Under the pieces are notes generated by a model. It was given only the letters and a program-made list of their open reading frames with translations. It ran no database searches and was not told the origin of the DNA. The position numbers and the translations under genes are program-made. A DNA stretch of 64,000 nt from Pirellulales bacterium (GTDB taxonomy: Bacteria > Planctomycetota > Planctomycetia > Pirellulales > PALSA-1355): positions 186,001-250,000 of the forward strand of contig JALHMI010000011.1 in the NCBI GenBank assembly GCA_022844125.1. Direction: 5' to 3'. Positions 9,240 to 28,910 of the stretch are shown here, piece by piece (the stretch's first letter is position 1; every line of letters begins with the position of its first letter).

Positions 9240-10289
9240 TTACTTCACTTCCGCCGGCTCAAGCAGCCGCGCGAAGCGCTTCGCGCTGCGGTTCTTCCAG
9301 CCGCCCTTGTGATAGGCGTAGCCCGCGATCAGCGGCACGGCCAGCGTGGCTTCGCTGAACACCATTTGTTCGAATGCCGTGTCGACCTTGCCCCAGCTCG
9401 AAGCCTCCTTCAGCGTGCTGCTGCTCAGAGCTCCATCGCGCACGTCGGCCACGGTGATCTGCACCGCGTACTTGTGCATCGGGGCGTCTTCGCCCAGGAT
9501 CTCGGCCGCCACGACAATGTCCTGCGTGAAGTTCTTCGGCACGCCGCCGCCGATCATGAAGATGCCCGTGTTGGGGTTGGCGATCTTGATCTGCGTCAGC
9601 TCGTAAAAATCCTTCACGCTGTCGATCGCCACCTTCGGCTGATCGCCTCGGGCGTGCTGATGCGCGACCAGCCCGAAGCCGGCCGAGCAATCCGAGAACG
9701 CGGGGCAGAAGATCGGCACGTCTTCTTCATAGGCCGCCAGCACGATCGAGTCCTTGGTCTTGCCGTGCTCGGCCAGGTAGGCGCCCATTTCGCGGATGAA
9801 CTCGCGCGAGCTGTAGGCCCGGGGCGGGAGCGAGTCGGCGATGATCTTGGTCGTGTCGTCGCAAATCCGCAGTTCGTCCTCGTCGATCAGCGTGTCATAA
9901 ATCCGGTCGATCTTCAGGTCGCGGAGCTTGTCGTCGTCCAATCCCGCCTTGAGCCGCTCGTCGGCGATGTAGTGGCTGAAGCCCAGACCTTCAAAGAAGT
10001 CCTGGTCGACGATGTTGGCCCCCGTGCTCACAATGCAGTCGACCAGCCGGTTGCGCACCAGGTCGACGAACACCTGCTTGAGGCCCGAGCTGATCAGGCT
10101 GCCGGCCAGGCAAAGGATGATCCCGCAGTCCTGGTCCCGCAGCATCCGGTCGTAGATGTCGGCCGCCCGGGCCAGATCGCGGGCGGAAAAGGCCATGTGC
10201 TGCATTGCCTCGACCACCGGCACCACGTTGTGCTGCTTGATGTCGACGTGCTTGATCTTCTGCGAGAGCAATTGCTGCTTGGTGGACAT
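9240..10289 (-). CDS. Deoxyhypusine-synthase-like enzyme
   Basis: The protein is 349 residues from the ATG at 10289, which follows AAGGAA. It resembles the deoxyhypusine synthase fold, which uses NAD and spermidine: IILCLAGSLISSG, DCIVSTGANIVDQD, IFCPAFSDCS and MIGGGVPKNF are recognisable family blocks. The catalytic lysine of DHS is present in SSWGKV (about Lys301). Bacteria lack eIF5A, the DHS substrate. Bacterial members of this family are thought to act on small molecules, for example in homospermidine formation, so a polyamine product is likely. The frame extends to 10478, but that extension has no homology-like sequence. Confidence 0.85.
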   Translation of the reverse strand: MSTKQQLLSQKIKHVDIKQHNVVPVVEAMQHMAFSARDLARAADIYDRMLRDQDCGIILCLAGSLISSGLKQVFVDLVRNRLVDCIVSTGANIVDQDFFEGLGFSHYIADERLKAGLDDDKLRDLKIDRIYDTLIDEDELRICDDTTKIIADSLPPRAYSSREFIREMGAYLAEHGKTKDSIVLAAYEEDVPIFCPAFSDCSAGFGLVAHQHARGDQPKVAIDSVKDFYELTQIKIANPNTGIFMIGGGVPKNFTQDIVVAAEILGEDAPMHKYAVQITVADVRDGALSSSTLKEASSWGKVDTAFEQMVFSEATLAVPLIAGYAYHKGGWKNRSAKRFARLLEPAEVK

Positions 10290-10470
10290 GGACCGGGGTT
10301 CCTTACGACCAGTAGTGAGTTCGAAGCGCTCGGGAGCACGCCCGGGTAAGGCCATTCTGGTCCATTCCGCCGGGCAAACGGAAAATTGTAGCGCAAAAGG
10401 CCCGATTGAGAAAGGGTGCGCGGAGCGGGCGAAAGCCAGACAGGCCGAGAGCTCTGCATGCTTCGTCTTC

Positions 10471-10604
10471 AGCCCCACCAGGGGCGATCGTTAATAGCCG
10501 GGGGTGGAAACCCCCGGAAACGAAACCGTCACCCAGAACCATATTCCTCTTTGTCCGTAGCCCCGGAGGGGCGACACTTCTTCCTTTCGGCCTGGGCGGC
10601 CCTA
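10471..10604. repeat. Palindromic repeat family 1, two copies left of the RAYT gene
   Basis: The consensus is AGCCCCGGAGGGGCG, a short AT-rich link (GTTAATAGCC), then GGGGGTGGAAACCCCCGG. A near-complete copy lies at 10471-10517. A second partial copy (AGCCCCGGAGGGGCGAC followed by a diverged hairpin) lies at 10558-10604 and reaches the stop codon of the RAYT gene. Both point rightwards, opposite to the copies at 11080-11177. Confidence 0.8.
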
Positions 10605-11048
10605 CCCCCACACGTAGTTCTCATCCCACGAGATCTGATGCCGACGCAAAAGCTCCCGGAACTCGTCCTGAAACGACAGCTTCCGATGATGCTCTTCCTG
10701 CGCGGCCAGATACTCGCGAACGCTCTCCAAATTCGACTGGCTGACGCTGAAGGCTCCGTACCCATCCTGCCAACGAATGTCAGGACGACCTTCAGTGCGA
10801 AGCCAACTCGAGGAATTCGCCTTCATCAACCGCGCCATTTCGGAAGTGCTCATGGTTCGCGCGAGCGAGACGAGCAAGTGCACATGATCGGGCATGCCAC
10901 CCGCGGCAAGGAGTTCGCACTCATGATTGTTCGCGATGCCGCCGAAGTACGCGAACAAGCGAGGTTGAAAGTCGCGATCCATGCGCGGCTGGCGATTCTT
11001 CGTGCTGAACACGATGTGCAGATAGATCGCCGCGAACGATTGAGGCAT
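10602..11048 (-). CDS. REP-associated tyrosine transposase (RAYT, Y1/IS200-like)
   Basis: The protein is 148 residues, normal for the family. The HUH motif is PDHVHLL (His55, His57). The catalytic tyrosine is in EYLAAQEEHH (Tyr113, Gln117 and the trailing HH), and GYGAFSVSQSN is a typical RAYT/IS200 block. Such enzymes cut single-stranded DNA at REP palindromes and are usually single-copy, domesticated genes. It is framed by oppositely oriented family-1 palindromes (10471-10604 and 11080-11177), as expected for a RAYT acting on its own repeats. All catalytic residues are intact. Confidence 0.85.
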   Translation of the reverse strand: MPQSFAAIYLHIVFSTKNRQPRMDRDFQPRLFAYFGGIANNHECELLAAGGMPDHVHLLVSLARTMSTSEMARLMKANSSSWLRTEGRPDIRWQDGYGAFSVSQSNLESVREYLAAQEEHHRKLSFQDEFRELLRRHQISWDENYVWG

Positions 11049-11079
11049 GGTGTTGCCCCTTGGGAATTCAACGCAGTGC

Positions 11080-11177
11080 CGCCCCTCCGGGGCTCAAACA
11101 AAAAGACAACTAAGAGTATCGCCCCTCATCCCGGGGGTTTCCACCCCCGGCTATTAACTTCCGCCCCTCCGGGGCTA
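11080..11177. repeat. Palindromic repeat family 1, inverted copies right of the RAYT gene
   Basis: A short GC palindrome (GCCCCTCCGGGGCTC) at 11080-11094 is followed by a near-complete copy at 11121-11177, the reverse complement of the copy at 10471. With the left copies it frames the transposase as an inverted-repeat unit of about 700 bases. Confidence 0.8.
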
Positions 11178-11252
11178 AAAGCACGTCGATTCACTTCCGA
11201 ACGGCAGGAATGGCGACTCACTCTGGCGATCGGTATGCTCGTCACGCGCAAC

Positions 11253-11323: not shown

Positions 11324-13522
11324 CTACCGCAGGCTCATATCGCAGCTCACGCCGCCGGCGGCCGGCAGGTAGGCGCTCTTGGTGTAGTCCATCACCATGC
11401 GGTGAGCACTGAACCGCCAGGCCAGCGAGCCGATCGAGTTCATCATCATCTGGATCCAGCCGCGCGGCAGACCGTCCACGTCACGTTCGTAGAACAGCGG
11501 CACCACTTGCTTCTCGAGCACCTGGAACAGCGACTCGGCGTCGCGCTCGTCGGTGATCTGATCCGAGACGTGCGTCGTGCCCGTGCCGATCGCAAACCCG
11601 TTCGAGCCGTCGTAGGCTTCCGCCCACCAACCGTCCAGCACCGAGCAATTCAACCCGCCGTTGAGCACCGCCTTCTGACCGCTGGTGCCCGAGGCTTCCA
11701 GCGGACGGCGCGGGTTGTTCAGCCACACGTCGACACCCTGGATCAGGTGCCGGCAGACGTTGATGTCATAGTCTTCCAGATACACGACCCGGTTGGCGAA
11801 CCGCTCGTCGTGCCGCAGGTTCGCAATCTTCTTGATGAGCTGCTTGCCCGGCTCGTCGGCCGGATGGGCCTTGCCGGCCACCACGATCTGCACCGGGCGA
11901 TCTTCGTCGTTCACCAGGGCGTTCAAGCGCTCCATGTCGCTCATGAACAGGTCGGCACGCTTGTAGGTCGCAAACCGGCGAGCGAAACCGATCGTCAGAA
12001 TGTTCGGATCGAACAGGTTCCGCGCGGCTTCCACCACGGCGTCGCTCTCTCCGCGGCGGCGGCATTGCCGGCTCACGCGGCGACGTACAAACGCCAACAG
12101 CAGGTTCTTGAGCGCGTAGTGAACTTCCCACAGTTCGCCCGGGTCGACCTGGTGAATGCCTTTCCAGGCTTCATGTTCGCCCATCCGCTGCAGCCAGCCA
12201 GCCGGGAAGTTACGTTCGTAAAGCTGAAGCATTTGCCACGCCAGCCAGCTCGGCACGTGCACGCCGTTGGTGATGTGGCCGATCGGAATCTCTTCTTCGA
12301 CGCGCCACGGCCACAGGTGAGCCCACATCCGGCGCGAGACATAACCGTGCAGGCAGCTCACGGCGTTGGCCCGCCGCGAGAGCTTGAGCGCGATCACCGT
12401 CATGCAGAAGCTTTCGCCTTCGTTGTGCGGCTCGACTCGGCCCAGGCCCATCAACTGTTCGTAGCTGATCTTCAGCTCGTCGCGCAAGGGCCCCAGATGC
12501 TCTTCGATCAATCCGCCGTCGAAGCGGTCGTGACCGGCGGGCACCGGAGTGTGCGTGGTGAATACGGTGTGCTGAGCCACGTCGCGCAGTGCGCTGTCGA
12601 AGCTCATCCCGTCGTTCGACATTCGTTCGCGAATCGCTTCCAACGTGGCGAACGCGCTGTGACCTTCGTTCAGGTGATAACAGCCCGGCGAGATACCCAG
12701 CGCCGCGAGCGCTTTCACGCCCCCCACGCCCAGCACCAGTTCCTGCCGAATTCGCGTGCGATGGTCGCCACCGTACAGCCGGCTGGTGAGTTCGCGATCC
12801 TCGGGGCTGTTCCCCTCGACGTCGCAGTCGAGCAGGTACAGCTTCACGCGGCCCACGTGCATCAGCCAGACCTTGGCGTGCAACTCGCCCGTGCGCGTTT
12901 CGATTGTGACGTTGACTTGCTTGCCATCAGTGCCGATGGCCGGTTCCATGGGCACGTTCTCGACCTTCGTGTCGAGATACTCCTCGCGCTGATAGGCGTC
13001 GAGGTCCAGGTGCTGCTTGAAATAACCCTGGTCATAGAACAGGCCGATCGCGATCAGCGGCACGCCCAGGCCGCTCGCGCTTTTAATATGGTCGCCCGAG
13101 AGCACGCCGAGACCGCCGGAGTAGATCGGCACCGATTCGTGAATGCCGAACTCGGCCGAGAAGTAAGCCACCGGCTTGCCGCCGAGCACGCCCGCATGGG
13201 TGCGACCCCAGGTGTGCGTGTTGGCCATGTATTCTTTGAGCCGGCGATAGGCGTAGTTGATACGGCTATAGAGCACCAGCTCCGCGGCGCGCATCTCCAA
13301 TCGCTCGGGCGTGAATTCGCTCAGCAGCGCGATCGGGTTATGATCCAGCTGTCGCCAGCGAATCGGATCCAGATCGCGGAAGAGATTGATGACTTCCGGA
13401 TGCCACGTCCACCACAAGTTGCGAGCAAGCGCGACGCACTTGTCGTACAACGTTTGCGGCGATAGCTCGGAGAGCGACAATTTATGCGAAGCTTGTGACG
13501 GCGCGGCTTCGGTGTGACTCAT
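11324..13522 (-). CDS. glgP: Alpha-glucan (glycogen) phosphorylase, GT35
   Basis: The protein is 732 residues, matching the shorter 'alpha-glucan family phosphorylase' class. It releases glucose-1-phosphate from glycogen or maltodextrin in the cytoplasm using pyridoxal phosphate. Recognisable blocks include YFSAEFGIHESVPIYSGGLG near the N-terminus, HLNEGHSAFATLE, VFTTHTPVPAGHDRF, and the cofactor-lysine region EASGTSGQKAVLNGG (Lys about 617) followed by VLDGWWAEAYDG. GGAGG precedes the ATG at 13522, a TATAAT box lies just upstream and a clear terminator follows, so it is probably monocistronic. A GH15 glucoamylase-type gene near 62.7 kb could act in the same glycogen metabolism. Confidence 0.92.
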   Translation of the reverse strand: MSHTEAAPSQASHKLSLSELSPQTLYDKCVALARNLWWTWHPEVINLFRDLDPIRWRQLDHNPIALLSEFTPERLEMRAAELVLYSRINYAYRRLKEYMANTHTWGRTHAGVLGGKPVAYFSAEFGIHESVPIYSGGLGVLSGDHIKSASGLGVPLIAIGLFYDQGYFKQHLDLDAYQREEYLDTKVENVPMEPAIGTDGKQVNVTIETRTGELHAKVWLMHVGRVKLYLLDCDVEGNSPEDRELTSRLYGGDHRTRIRQELVLGVGGVKALAALGISPGCYHLNEGHSAFATLEAIRERMSNDGMSFDSALRDVAQHTVFTTHTPVPAGHDRFDGGLIEEHLGPLRDELKISYEQLMGLGRVEPHNEGESFCMTVIALKLSRRANAVSCLHGYVSRRMWAHLWPWRVEEEIPIGHITNGVHVPSWLAWQMLQLYERNFPAGWLQRMGEHEAWKGIHQVDPGELWEVHYALKNLLLAFVRRRVSRQCRRRGESDAVVEAARNLFDPNILTIGFARRFATYKRADLFMSDMERLNALVNDEDRPVQIVVAGKAHPADEPGKQLIKKIANLRHDERFANRVVYLEDYDINVCRHLIQGVDVWLNNPRRPLEASGTSGQKAVLNGGLNCSVLDGWWAEAYDGSNGFAIGTGTTHVSDQITDERDAESLFQVLEKQVVPLFYERDVDGLPRGWIQMMMNSIGSLAWRFSAHRMVMDYTKSAYLPAAGGVSCDMSLR

Positions 13523-14838: not shown

Positions 14839-14851
14839 CGGGGCAATTCCG

Positions 14852-15023
14852 CAGCCCGGGAGGGGCGATCGTTAATAGCCGCGGGTGGGAATTACCGGTC
14901 CAAGGCTTGGGTGCCACAGGTGCTGCGCAGCAGTCACCTGTGCACGTTTTCCACCGAGAAGAGCCCGTGCTGCCACTGCCAGAAGAGCACAGGTGAGCCG
15001 GCACGCGGCCACCTGTGGCACCC
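14852..15023. repeat. Degenerate family-1 repeat plus a composite inverted repeat
   Basis: A decayed family-1 copy (AGCCCGGGAGGGGCGATCGT, then a broken second hairpin) occupies 14852-14896. Next is an element with 14-base perfect inverted ends (GGGTGCCACAGGTG at 14909-14922, its complement at 15010-15023) and an inner inverted pair (TCACCTGTGC at 14934 and its complement at 14987). It fills most of the 381-base gap before cysC. Confidence 0.75.
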
Positions 15024-15219
15024 GATCCGTACGACACGCTCGAATCTCAGCCAGGAGATCGCTAATGGCGTAGCCCGCCGTCGCTAAATGAATCGCATGC
15101 TCCGCCCGCTGCCAAGCACCTCCCCTTTGCGCCCCGCACCCCGCTCGGCTATCATTGCGGTTTCGCATAATCCGCAAAACACCCGCAATTCAAAGAGTTT
15201 CAAAGGAGCACCCCAGCCC

Positions 15220-16530: not shown

Positions 16531-16646
16531 GAGTAGCCGTCCGCTCGTGAGCGGTCCGTTATGCTTCATGCCTCGCGGCCGCAGGCCGGCAACATGGCAG
16601 CCCCGGGCATTCGTCCAGGGTACCGATCGCGCTCCCTGTGATATCC

Positions 16647-16704
16647 AGCCCCGTCGGGGCGAAACATTGTTCCCCGCGAAAATGGTTCCGCCCCCTCAGG
16701 GCTC
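16647..16704. repeat. Degenerate family-1 palindrome pair
   Basis: AGCCCCGTCGGGGCG (16647) and an inverted GCCCCCTCAGGGCTC (16690) are decayed family-1 heads facing each other. The rest of the 355-base gap 16449-16803 shows only the tandem repeat above. Confidence 0.55.
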
Positions 16705-16803
16705 AAAATGCGAATCACGCGGAGCTTCACGGGGCGGTGCCCCGTGCTGGCATGTTGCACGCCTTCGGCGTAGCGTCGCTTCCGCGGTTGGCAGCGCCGC
16801 ATC

Positions 16804-18509: not shown

Positions 18510-18697
18510 CAGCCCCGGAGGGGCTCTGGGTGTCACTCGGTGCCACTGCTGGCTCGCCCAGCAGTGCTCTTCCCTGGTCTTGCCTTGCACTCGGGAAGTG
18601 CCGAGCGAAGCTTGCTTCGAGGCGATGATGTTCGTGTCCGACGCAGCAAGGTGAAATCAACTACAGGAACACTGCTGGACAAGCCAGCAGTGGCACC
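18510..18697. repeat. Composite-hairpin element (family 2), full copy, with a family-1 head
   Basis: After a family-1 head (AGCCCCGGAGGGGCTC, 18510-18525), a 159-base element has 14-base perfect inverted ends (GGTGCCACTGCTGG at 18539, complement ending 18697). Each end is also a 9-base hairpin (CACTGCTGG-loop-CCAGCAGTG). The interior matches the reverse complement of the copy at 22533-22689. It lies between the GT9 gene and gmhB. Confidence 0.85.
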
Positions 18698-27804: not shown

Positions 27805-27981
27805 CTACGACTGCGGCTTACTCGTCTTGTTTACCAGCAACTGCACGTTGCCACATCCGTCGCACATCCGCGCCACCACCGGCTTCCCGGCCGGCTTGCG
27901 GCCATCGGCGAACGTCTTTACGAACAGCATCTGCCGATCGATGGGCACCACGCCGTCGACAAATTCGGCAGCGCAATGCAT
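27805..27981 (-). CDS. Small protein with one CxxC pair, possibly a gene fragment
   Basis: The frame is 58 residues, MHCAAEFVDGVVPIDRQMLF onward, ending VVARMCDGCGNVQLLVNKTS plus four residues. Composition and reading look coding: balanced residues and an MCDGCGN turn like half a zinc ribbon. An in-frame stop just upstream of the ATG and repeats on both sides mean it could be either a genuine small protein or a remnant. No family was recognised. Confidence 0.4.
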   Translation of the reverse strand: MHCAAEFVDGVVPIDRQMLFVKTFADGRKPAGKPVVARMCDGCGNVQLLVNKTSKPQS

Positions 27982-27984
27982 TGG

Positions 27985-28350
27985 CCAGGGTCAGCGGCCT
28001 TGGAATTCTGGTTCGCGTTTTCAGCCCCGGAGGGGCGACCGTCAGTAGCCGGGGGTGGAAACCCCCGGTAGCCGATCGGCAACACACCCGATTCTTTTTC
28101 TTTCCGGAGCCCTGGAAGGGCGGCAGTTTCACACCGTGCGCGTTGGCTTCCCGACGCGTGCCGTGAATCCGAACTGCGAGCAGTGTCGCCCCTCCGGGGC
28201 TTCTGATCGAAGAAGAGAAAAGAGATCGGGGCGGCTTCGTCTTCCGGGGGCTTACGCACCCCCGGCTATTAACTTTCGCCCCTCCGGGGCTGAGATCTGC
28301 AACCAAGTACCGAGGCTTCGCGCGTTTCAACCAGGGCCGCTGACCCTGGC
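27985..28350. repeat. Cluster of family-1 palindromes in both orientations (BIME-like)
   Basis: A full copy at 28023-28068 faces an inverted full copy at 28243-28291, with partial heads at about 28105 and 28184 between them. Outer flanks are also inverted: GCCAGGGTCAGCGGCCTTGG near 27985 pairs with a complementary segment ending near 28345. The structure is like that around the RAYT gene but contains no transposase. Confidence 0.75.
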
Positions 28351-28375
28351 TATTGCAGCGCCGGACCTGCGGCCC

Positions 28376-28657
28376 TCAAGAAGAACCACGTTCATTTGCG
28401 CCGCTCACTCCCGGTCCGGATAAATCGTCCACCTGAGCGTGGCCGCAGGCGGCGATTCGCCGGAGCGTGTCGTTCGAGAGGCCTTGGTTGAACGCCCAGG
28501 GCTCGGCGCCGCACTCGTAGCCGATGTTGAACTCGCGCAGCGTGCACGCCCGCCACAGCGCGGCCGCACGGGCGTCTGCCTCCGGGGCGAGCACCGCTTC
28601 GATCGCGCTGAGCATCACGCGAATCGTGTTCTCTGGCTCATCTTCGATTCCGATCAC
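28376..28657 (-). pseudogene. Hypothetical frame, probably the remainder of a disrupted gene
   Basis: The frame is 93 residues from a GTG (VIGIEDEPENTIRVMLSAIE...). It looks coding and stays open upstream (QYCTLEIDEP precedes the GTG) until it meets the inverted-repeat element at 28694, which suggests that the 5' end was cut off by that insertion. Motifs such as FNIGYECGAEPWAFNQGLSN give no family match. Confidence 0.35.
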
Positions 28658-28693: not shown

Positions 28694-28846
28694 GTAGCAG
28701 GCACACGCCGTGTGCCGTCGCAGCAGCGCACGAAGGCGACCGCCGACAAGACAATCCTACGCGATGACGGGTCGTGGTTCACGCTCTGCGAGCAGGGTAT
28801 TACCCAGTCCCGCTTCCGCCAACGGCACACGGCGTGTGCCTGCTAC
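28694..28846. mobile_element. MITE-like element with perfect 25-base terminal inverted repeats
   Basis: 153 bases bounded by perfect 25-base inverted repeats (starting GTAGCAGGCACACGCCGTGT at 28694; complementary arm 28822-28846). The arms are themselves nearly palindromic (GCACACGCCGTGTGC). There is no coding capacity. A decayed family-1 tail follows at 28861-28890. Confidence 0.75.
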
Positions 28847-28910
28847 TTTACGCCGGAGCGGCTATTAACTTCCGCCCACTTCGGGGCTAATGCATCTGAA
28901 AGAATCGCTG

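Follow-up and report, generated by a model that had tools for sequence, protein, structure and literature searches.

The window analysed here, that is, the whole stretch of 64,000 nt from the Pirellulales bacterium assembly GCA_022844125.1 (contig JALHMI010000011.1, positions 186,001 to 250,000), contains a small transposase gene, tnpA, that lies between two inverted units of ~105 nt, and the locus as a whole is a palindrome centred on the gene. Its features are as follows, in window coordinates; R2 is a covariance model trained solely on the units of other genomes, with no window sequence.

10468..10578, + strand: left half-unit X-H2-X, read from outer to inner (R2, 53.3 bits, E 4.9e-12)
10472..10485, + strand: outer small hairpin X1, GCCCCACCAGGGGC (from the sequence)
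10494..10517, + strand: guide-like ATAG (10494-10497) and central hairpin H2 (10498-10517) (from the sequence and the conservation of the foot)
10560..10572, + strand: X3, the small hairpin on the inner side, GCCCCGGAGGGGC; the stop codon of tnpA is 29 nt away
10602..11048, - strand: tnpA, encoding a 148-aa Y1/HUH transposase of the subclass 1.2 type (ORF, Pfam, NCBIfam, alignment, AlphaFold2 model)
11075..11179, - strand: right half-unit, inverted (R2, 66.8 bits, E 1.9e-15)
11081-11093, 11131-11150 and 11163-11175, - strand: X3, H2 and X1 of the right half-unit (from the sequence)
11131-11176: match to the Rfam family Acido-Lenti-1 (RF01687) in the right half-unit, 49 bits

The genes on either side (9240-10478 and 11324-13522) have the look of a deoxyhypusine-synthase-like gene and a glycogen phosphorylase, respectively, when their translations are read by eye.

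A preliminary description of this DNA had reported intact HUH and Tyr-Gln-HH motifs, and the product of 10602-11048 indeed carries DHVH, WQ and YLAAQEEHH (Y113xxxQ117xxHH), as seen in its sequence and in alignment. Among 29 aligned proteins, H55, H57, W93, Q94, Q117, H120 and H121 are invariant and Y113 is nearly so. The Pfam Y1_Tnp model matches the protein at 6e-26. Its AlphaFold2 model has a mean pLDDT of 89, and Foldseek searches with this model return IS608, ISDra2 and other IS200 transposases, as well as the REP-bound RAYT 4er8 (TnpA_REP). The protein ends in a short C-terminal tail, and no tnpB lies beside the gene.

Y1 transposases are divided into classes and subclasses by their motifs. 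Subclass 1.2 is characterized by DH[IV]H, WQ and Y---Q--HH, a length of ~148 aa and a C-terminal tail of its own, as well as by a low copy number and low identity between copies in the same genome (Quentin 2018, PMC6006769). The motifs and length of the window transposase fit this subclass. The genome holds two such genes in total, the second (on contig C4) being 41% identical to the first, and both the low copy number and the low identity between copies are thus observed here. In contrast, the catalytic motif of class 2, the RAYTs, is Y---NP (PMC6006769). Since this motif is missing and the NCBIfam RAYT model NF047646 gives 31.2 bits against a cut-off of 80, the window tnpA is not a RAYT, and class 2 membership was rejected; the IS200/IS605 model NF033573, at 71.3 bits, passes its cut-off of 55. 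The locus had been described as a RAYT/REP pair unlike those of enterobacteria. The link between a Y1 transposase and hairpin repeats of its own stands, as does the dissimilarity to enterobacterial REPs, but the family assignment does not. No REP or terminal structure has been reported for subclass 1.2, which is described mainly from Cyanobacteria and Bacteroidetes (PMC6006769).

In the copies of this genome, a half-unit consists, from the outside in, of the small hairpin X, a linker of 12 nt whose last letters are ATAG, the central hairpin H2, a spacer and X again. The general form is X, 12 nt ending in NTAG, H2, ~24 nt (longer in family-1, to which the units beside tnpA belong) and X. The unit therefore has three hairpins, X-H2-X, and not the two first attributed to it. 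The two half-units share inverted 38-nt arms (10480-10517 and 11131-11168) that are 92% complementary, besides 20-nt inner arms, and on the right, 32 nt separate the end of X3 from the start codon of tnpA, which lies downstream. R2 finds the family-1 units of the window at E 2e-15 to 5e-12, far past chance, and the oppositely oriented palindromes noted earlier on both sides of the gene are thereby recovered (E 5e-12 on the left, 2e-15 on the right).

The same arrangement is found well beyond this genome. When 296 genomes of the order were searched, 135 proved to contain tnpA relatives, with 1–8 matches each, and the flanks of these relatives carry the same three-hairpin unit in different letters. 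An earlier automatic caller of triple hairpins passed 25 of 263 far regions and 15 of 330 shuffles; because it was too loose, it was replaced by a covariance model (R1) built from 28 hand-checked units, and then by R2, which contains none of this genome's sequence. In the 28 hand-checked units, 94% of the cells of the three helices are paired, and doubly changed cells number 67 compared with 18 in shuffles. The inverted-repeat score within a locus exceeded the 95th percentile of cross-locus comparisons in 20 of 33 cases, a moderate excess only, because the units are alike between genomes.

R1 was then run on 80 loci of named genomes that had been chosen by protein similarity alone. These loci represent more than ten phyla, including Planctomycetes, Verrucomicrobia, Bacteroidetes, Acidobacteria, Deltaproteobacteria, Nitrospirae, Zixibacteria, Fibrobacteres, Armatimonadetes, Calditrichaeota and others. 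Units in the right orientation flank both sides of the gene in 50 of the 80, a single side in 22 (in five of which the other side lies off the contig) and neither side in eight. Matches number 122 in the 25.6 kb of nearest flanks versus nine in the 375 kb beyond 1 kb, i.e., distant matches are ~200 times rarer per base, and the distance from unit to gene is mostly within 30 nt.

An alignment of 147 distinct units from other loci shows compensatory changes at 18 of 18 pairs, with 520 doubly changed cells versus 100 in shuffles, figures that lean towards the structure to which the alignment was fitted. In most units, across phyla, the linker from X to H2 is 12 nt long and the spacer from H2 to X is 22–27 nt (~24). 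A guide-like foot of the kind suggested earlier is seen at the central hairpin, where it reads NTAG (G in 96% at -1, A in 99% at -2 and T in 67% at -3 of the 147 units); it is GTAG in 16 of the 147, and dispersed hairpins flank the gene. Of the adjacent unit pairs lying within 200 nt of each other in three genomes, 41 of 46 are arranged inner-to-inner, with a gap of ~20 nt in most tnpA-less pairs and ~495 nt around tnpA. Tandem arrays also adjoin tnpA; Planctomycetes bacterium Pan216, for one, has five repeats of 95 nt there.

Gene and unit tend to occur together. Across the 296 genomes of the order, 123 have both tnpA and units, 12 have tnpA alone, 20 have units alone and 141 have neither (odds ratio 72). 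When counted by genus (n = 121), which corrects for phylogeny only in part, the corresponding numbers are 68, 3, 11 and 39 (p 3e-18). In an order of Bacteroidota, the numbers are 40, 50, 5 and 99 genomes, respectively (odds ratio 16). Here, 50 of the 90 tnpA-positive genomes gave no unit match, a shortfall that may reflect the sensitivity of the model. The expectation that units should be missing where the gene is missing is largely borne out, as they persist in just 20 of the 161 tnpA-negative genomes of the order. An HMM re-search of these 20 genomes found no strong subclass 1.2 gene, with weak fragments in a few. Plasmid and phage collections yielded almost no full-length relatives, namely two on plasmids, one of which has units, and a cyanobacterial plasmid relative showed no unit. 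Because the collections are nearly devoid of full-length relatives, plasmid spread was dropped as a main route.

Part of the unit is already catalogued under another name. RF01687 scores above its gathering threshold of 37 at three places in the window (49.0, 44.3 and 41.0 bits), and its model, which matches the strand opposite to that of the unit, corresponds to X plus H2 both in the window's units and in those of other phyla. Across the 296 genomes, RF01687 and tnpA occur together in 114, tnpA without RF01687 in 21, RF01687 without tnpA in 17 and neither in 144; no match was found in 14 control genomes. Rfam files the family as an sRNA of unknown function. It was described as a probable RNA of Acidobacteria and Lentisphaerae by Weinberg et al. 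in 2010 (PMC2864571), and a 2026 paper, noting that little is known of its function, proposes a regulatory role near Tannerella proteases (PMC13298647). In contrast to the full unit, the catalogued entry is without the inner hairpin and without a link to a transposase. No published tie between Acido-Lenti-1 and a transposase was found in the open-access papers that the search covered.

Further copies in the window vary widely in completeness, as listed here.

28020-28127 (+) and 28182-28294 (-): complete inverted pair of family-1 half-units without tnpA (R2 E 2.2e-14 and 1.2e-12)
28023-28068 and 28244-28291: RF01687 matches in that element
27981..28379: remains of a family-2 element around the same element (arms 27981-28003 and 28334-28352; R1 match 28272-28379; R2 match 28296-28379, E 4e-5; in the scoring of its right half-unit, family-1 X took the part of the inner hairpin)
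16572-16666 (+) and 16684-16775 (-): family-3 element (R2 E 2e-9 and 1e-12)
14850..14929, + strand: degraded family-1 left half (R2 18.6 bits, E 0.003)
28812..28891, - strand: degraded family-1 right half (R2 17.9 bits, E 0.004)
18512..18524, + strand: lone small hairpin X, doubtful (11.1 bits, E 0.35, near chance for the full model)

The scattered family-1 copies proposed earlier are hence a mixed set. Those at 28.0-28.3 kb form a complete tnpA-less pair, and those at 14.85 and 28.87 kb are degraded halves; the one at 16.65 kb (16572-16775) is not family-1 but a member of the family that adjoins the genome's second tnpA on C4, and that at 18.51 kb is the lone hairpin. Within 27981-28379, the family-1 element sits concentrically inside the family-2 element, and its outer hairpin X occupies the place of the family-2 inner hairpin. 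Another tnpA-less pair of half-units is located elsewhere in the genome, at C17:85228-85462.

Genome-wide, ~45 half-unit matches representing several families are present. The count of the family that had been called for showed it not to be abundant, with exact GCCCCGGAGGGGC at 16 sites in 6.44 Mb, of which 7 fall no more than 18 kb from tnpA, and a high-copy REP family spread over the genome was rejected on this count. Family-1 copies are 58–78% identical, with intact hairpins and spacers that cannot be aligned. Since identity is this low and the spacers are not kept, the portrayal of the system as active or recent finds no support in this genome; judged from the divergence of its copies and of its two tnpA genes, and from the several families of half-units, the system here is old, and it is also low-copy.

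Other kinds of repeat accompany these copies. A perfect inverted pair of 25 bp, GTAGCAGGCACACGCCGTGTGCCGT and ACGGCACACGGCGTGTGCCTGCTAC, at 28694-28846 resembles a canonical GTAG-tagged REP dimer and adjoins the degraded family-1 half. Two more inverted pairs with GGTGCCAC cores, at 14904-15028 and 18539-18697, abut degraded family-1 pieces. At C17:104.7 kb (L012), similar repeats again adjoin a half of family-1, so that several repeat families together form a mosaic. A third family of units (TTAGCCAGGG.. with AGCCCCAACGGGGC) is seen at L005, L008 and L015 (G000 C8, C12 and C25), with no matching tnpA seen adjoining these copies, and may be left over from a transposase that has since been lost.

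Comparison of congeneric species in a related genus bears on mobility. Fifteen unit-bearing loci, comprising tnpA-less elements and the tnpA locus, were taken from genome G104, and six congeners were searched for the flanks of five of these loci. At one site (L207), an insertion of ~265 nt is present in G104, and the flanks are contiguous in G033, G087 and G062; the insertion has imperfect inverted arms of ~33 nt outside X and ends ~33 nt beyond X1. At a second site (L204), the element is absent in four species, with the flanks contiguous or 3–22 nt apart, and at a third (L200) it is absent in two. The empty sites revealed neither a target-site duplication nor a target motif. The tnpA gene, for its part, is syntenic and intact in G104, G033 and G062, is reduced in G087 to a fragment (residues 66–118) exactly between the flanks, and has one stop codon in G100. 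A fixed or decaying transposase alongside short elements that vary fits vertical inheritance of the transposase with spread of the short elements, as described for RAYTs and REPs (PMC8266576, PMC6006769). As read from these comparisons, tnpA-less elements have moved from site to site among related species, and tnpA stays put and decays.

The locus is very probably an autonomous Y1 single-strand transposase system, similar in kind to RAYT/REPIN systems, that is composed of a subclass 1.2 transposase and its own hairpin unit. It is also likely, if somewhat less so, that subclass 1.2 is a separate REPtron-like system of more than ten phyla that mobilises X-TAG-H2-X in trans, and that what is catalogued as Acido-Lenti-1 is a piece of the DNA element and no independent RNA. 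By analogy with IS608, ISDra2 and TnpA-REP, TnpA would bind H2 and its NTAG foot in single-stranded DNA, e.g., on the lagging strand, and the hydroxyl of Tyr113 would cut near the small hairpins under the guidance of the foot. Rejoining of the cut strand elsewhere would spread the short elements in trans, and tandem units could be added beside old ones. In the TnpA-REP of Marinomonas, cleavage at CT or CA is directed by the tetranucleotide (PMC8266576), and the CA that often follows X (GACA or GGCA) is a candidate cleavage site on the same analogy.

It is unlikely that the units act as RNA, with Acido-Lenti-1 being a non-coding RNA or a 5′ or 3′ structure that controls tnpA and its neighbours. 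The sRNA entry in Rfam, the 2010 rating as a probable RNA and the location of the inner hairpin, which in most loci precedes the start codon by 2–40 nt, agree with such a role, but the units stand on both sides of tnpA in opposite orientation, form inverted pairs where tnpA is lacking, and are gained and lost between species as insertions of ~200–300 nt. A secondary effect of the units on mRNA is possible. Slightly less probable still is an ordinary IS200/IS605-type IS of subclass 1.1 with deleted copies in the form of MITEs. The score above the cut-off of the IS200/IS605 equivalog, the tnpA-less copies that share the ends of the tnpA element and the insertion polymorphism of the short elements would all be expected of one. 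However, subclass 1.1 averages 4.8 copies at 99% identity (PMC6006769), compared with one gene copy and a 41% relative here, tnpA is fixed at one site across congeners, and the ends are long, inverted three-hairpin units.

A true RAYT, i.e., a class 2 TnpA-REP with ordinary GTAG-tagged REPs, is very improbable. It would share with the locus the inverted palindromes around a Y1 gene, the TAG foot at the central hairpin, the WQ motif, the weak match to the RAYT model and the fold match to 4er8, but Y---Q--HH in place of Y---NP already fails the motif that defines the class, the model score is 31 bits against 80, and the unit has three hairpins versus one and a low copy number in the genome. As for chance palindromes or transcription terminators around a lone gene, the window is 62% GC, and short GCCCC/GGGGC palindromes do arise in such DNA; nevertheless, the 16 exact GCCCCGGAGGGGC sites genome-wide with 7 within 18 kb of tnpA, the E-values of an independent model (2e-15 to 5e-12), the covariation, and the spacings of 12 and ~24 nt kept across phyla make this reading practically negligible, and placement across phyla already refutes it.

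The system that is favoured here, a subclass 1.2 transposase with its own unit, resembles several known ones in part. With subclass 1.2 as described (PMC6006769) it shares the motifs, the ~148-aa length, the C-terminal tail, the low copy number and the low identity, but here a three-hairpin unit lies to either side, and the gene is frequent among Planctomycetes, Verrucomicrobia, Acidobacteria and others. Similarities to RAYT/REP/REPIN/BIME systems are a single-copy, vertically kept transposase, short dispersed inverted hairpin pairs, a TAG-type hairpin foot, tandem arrays and clustering near the gene, the last as in the REPtrons of Marinomonas (PMC8266576). The differences are the Y---Q--HH class, an X-H2-X unit of ~90–110 nt versus one hairpin, and a foot that is NTAG, not strictly GTAG. 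TIRYTs/TIRtrons (Di Nocera 2013, PMC3733652) likewise have a Y1 gene between long inverted repeats that are possibly self-complementary and repeated in the genome. Of the 26 described TIRYTs, 20 are subclass 2.1 proteins that carry an HTH tail and are associated with GGGGWSAS repeats, the others being of 2.2 or 2.5 (PMC6006769), whereas the window tnpA, with 148 aa, Y---Q--HH and a short tail, falls outside class 2. IS200/IS605 elements such as IS608 and ISDra2 have the same fold, catalytic residues and hairpin ends, but the locus differs in having no adjoining tnpB, inverted three-hairpin ends and a gene that is not multi-copy.

A transposase subclass with no known target would thus gain a defined, putative DNA substrate, and its activity would be directly testable in vitro. 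If this reading is correct, a catalogued “RNA” family becomes part of a mobile DNA, and annotations near genes would be read differently. The lifestyle of RAYTs and REPINs, with a static transposase and spreading short hairpins, would then arise with more than one class of Y1 enzyme.

Some tnpA-less copies of another genome (L175-L180, G317) share ~35 nt outside X, in the form of imperfect inverted ends that start with TNAGAAANTACG, which suggests subfamilies with outer arms of their own.
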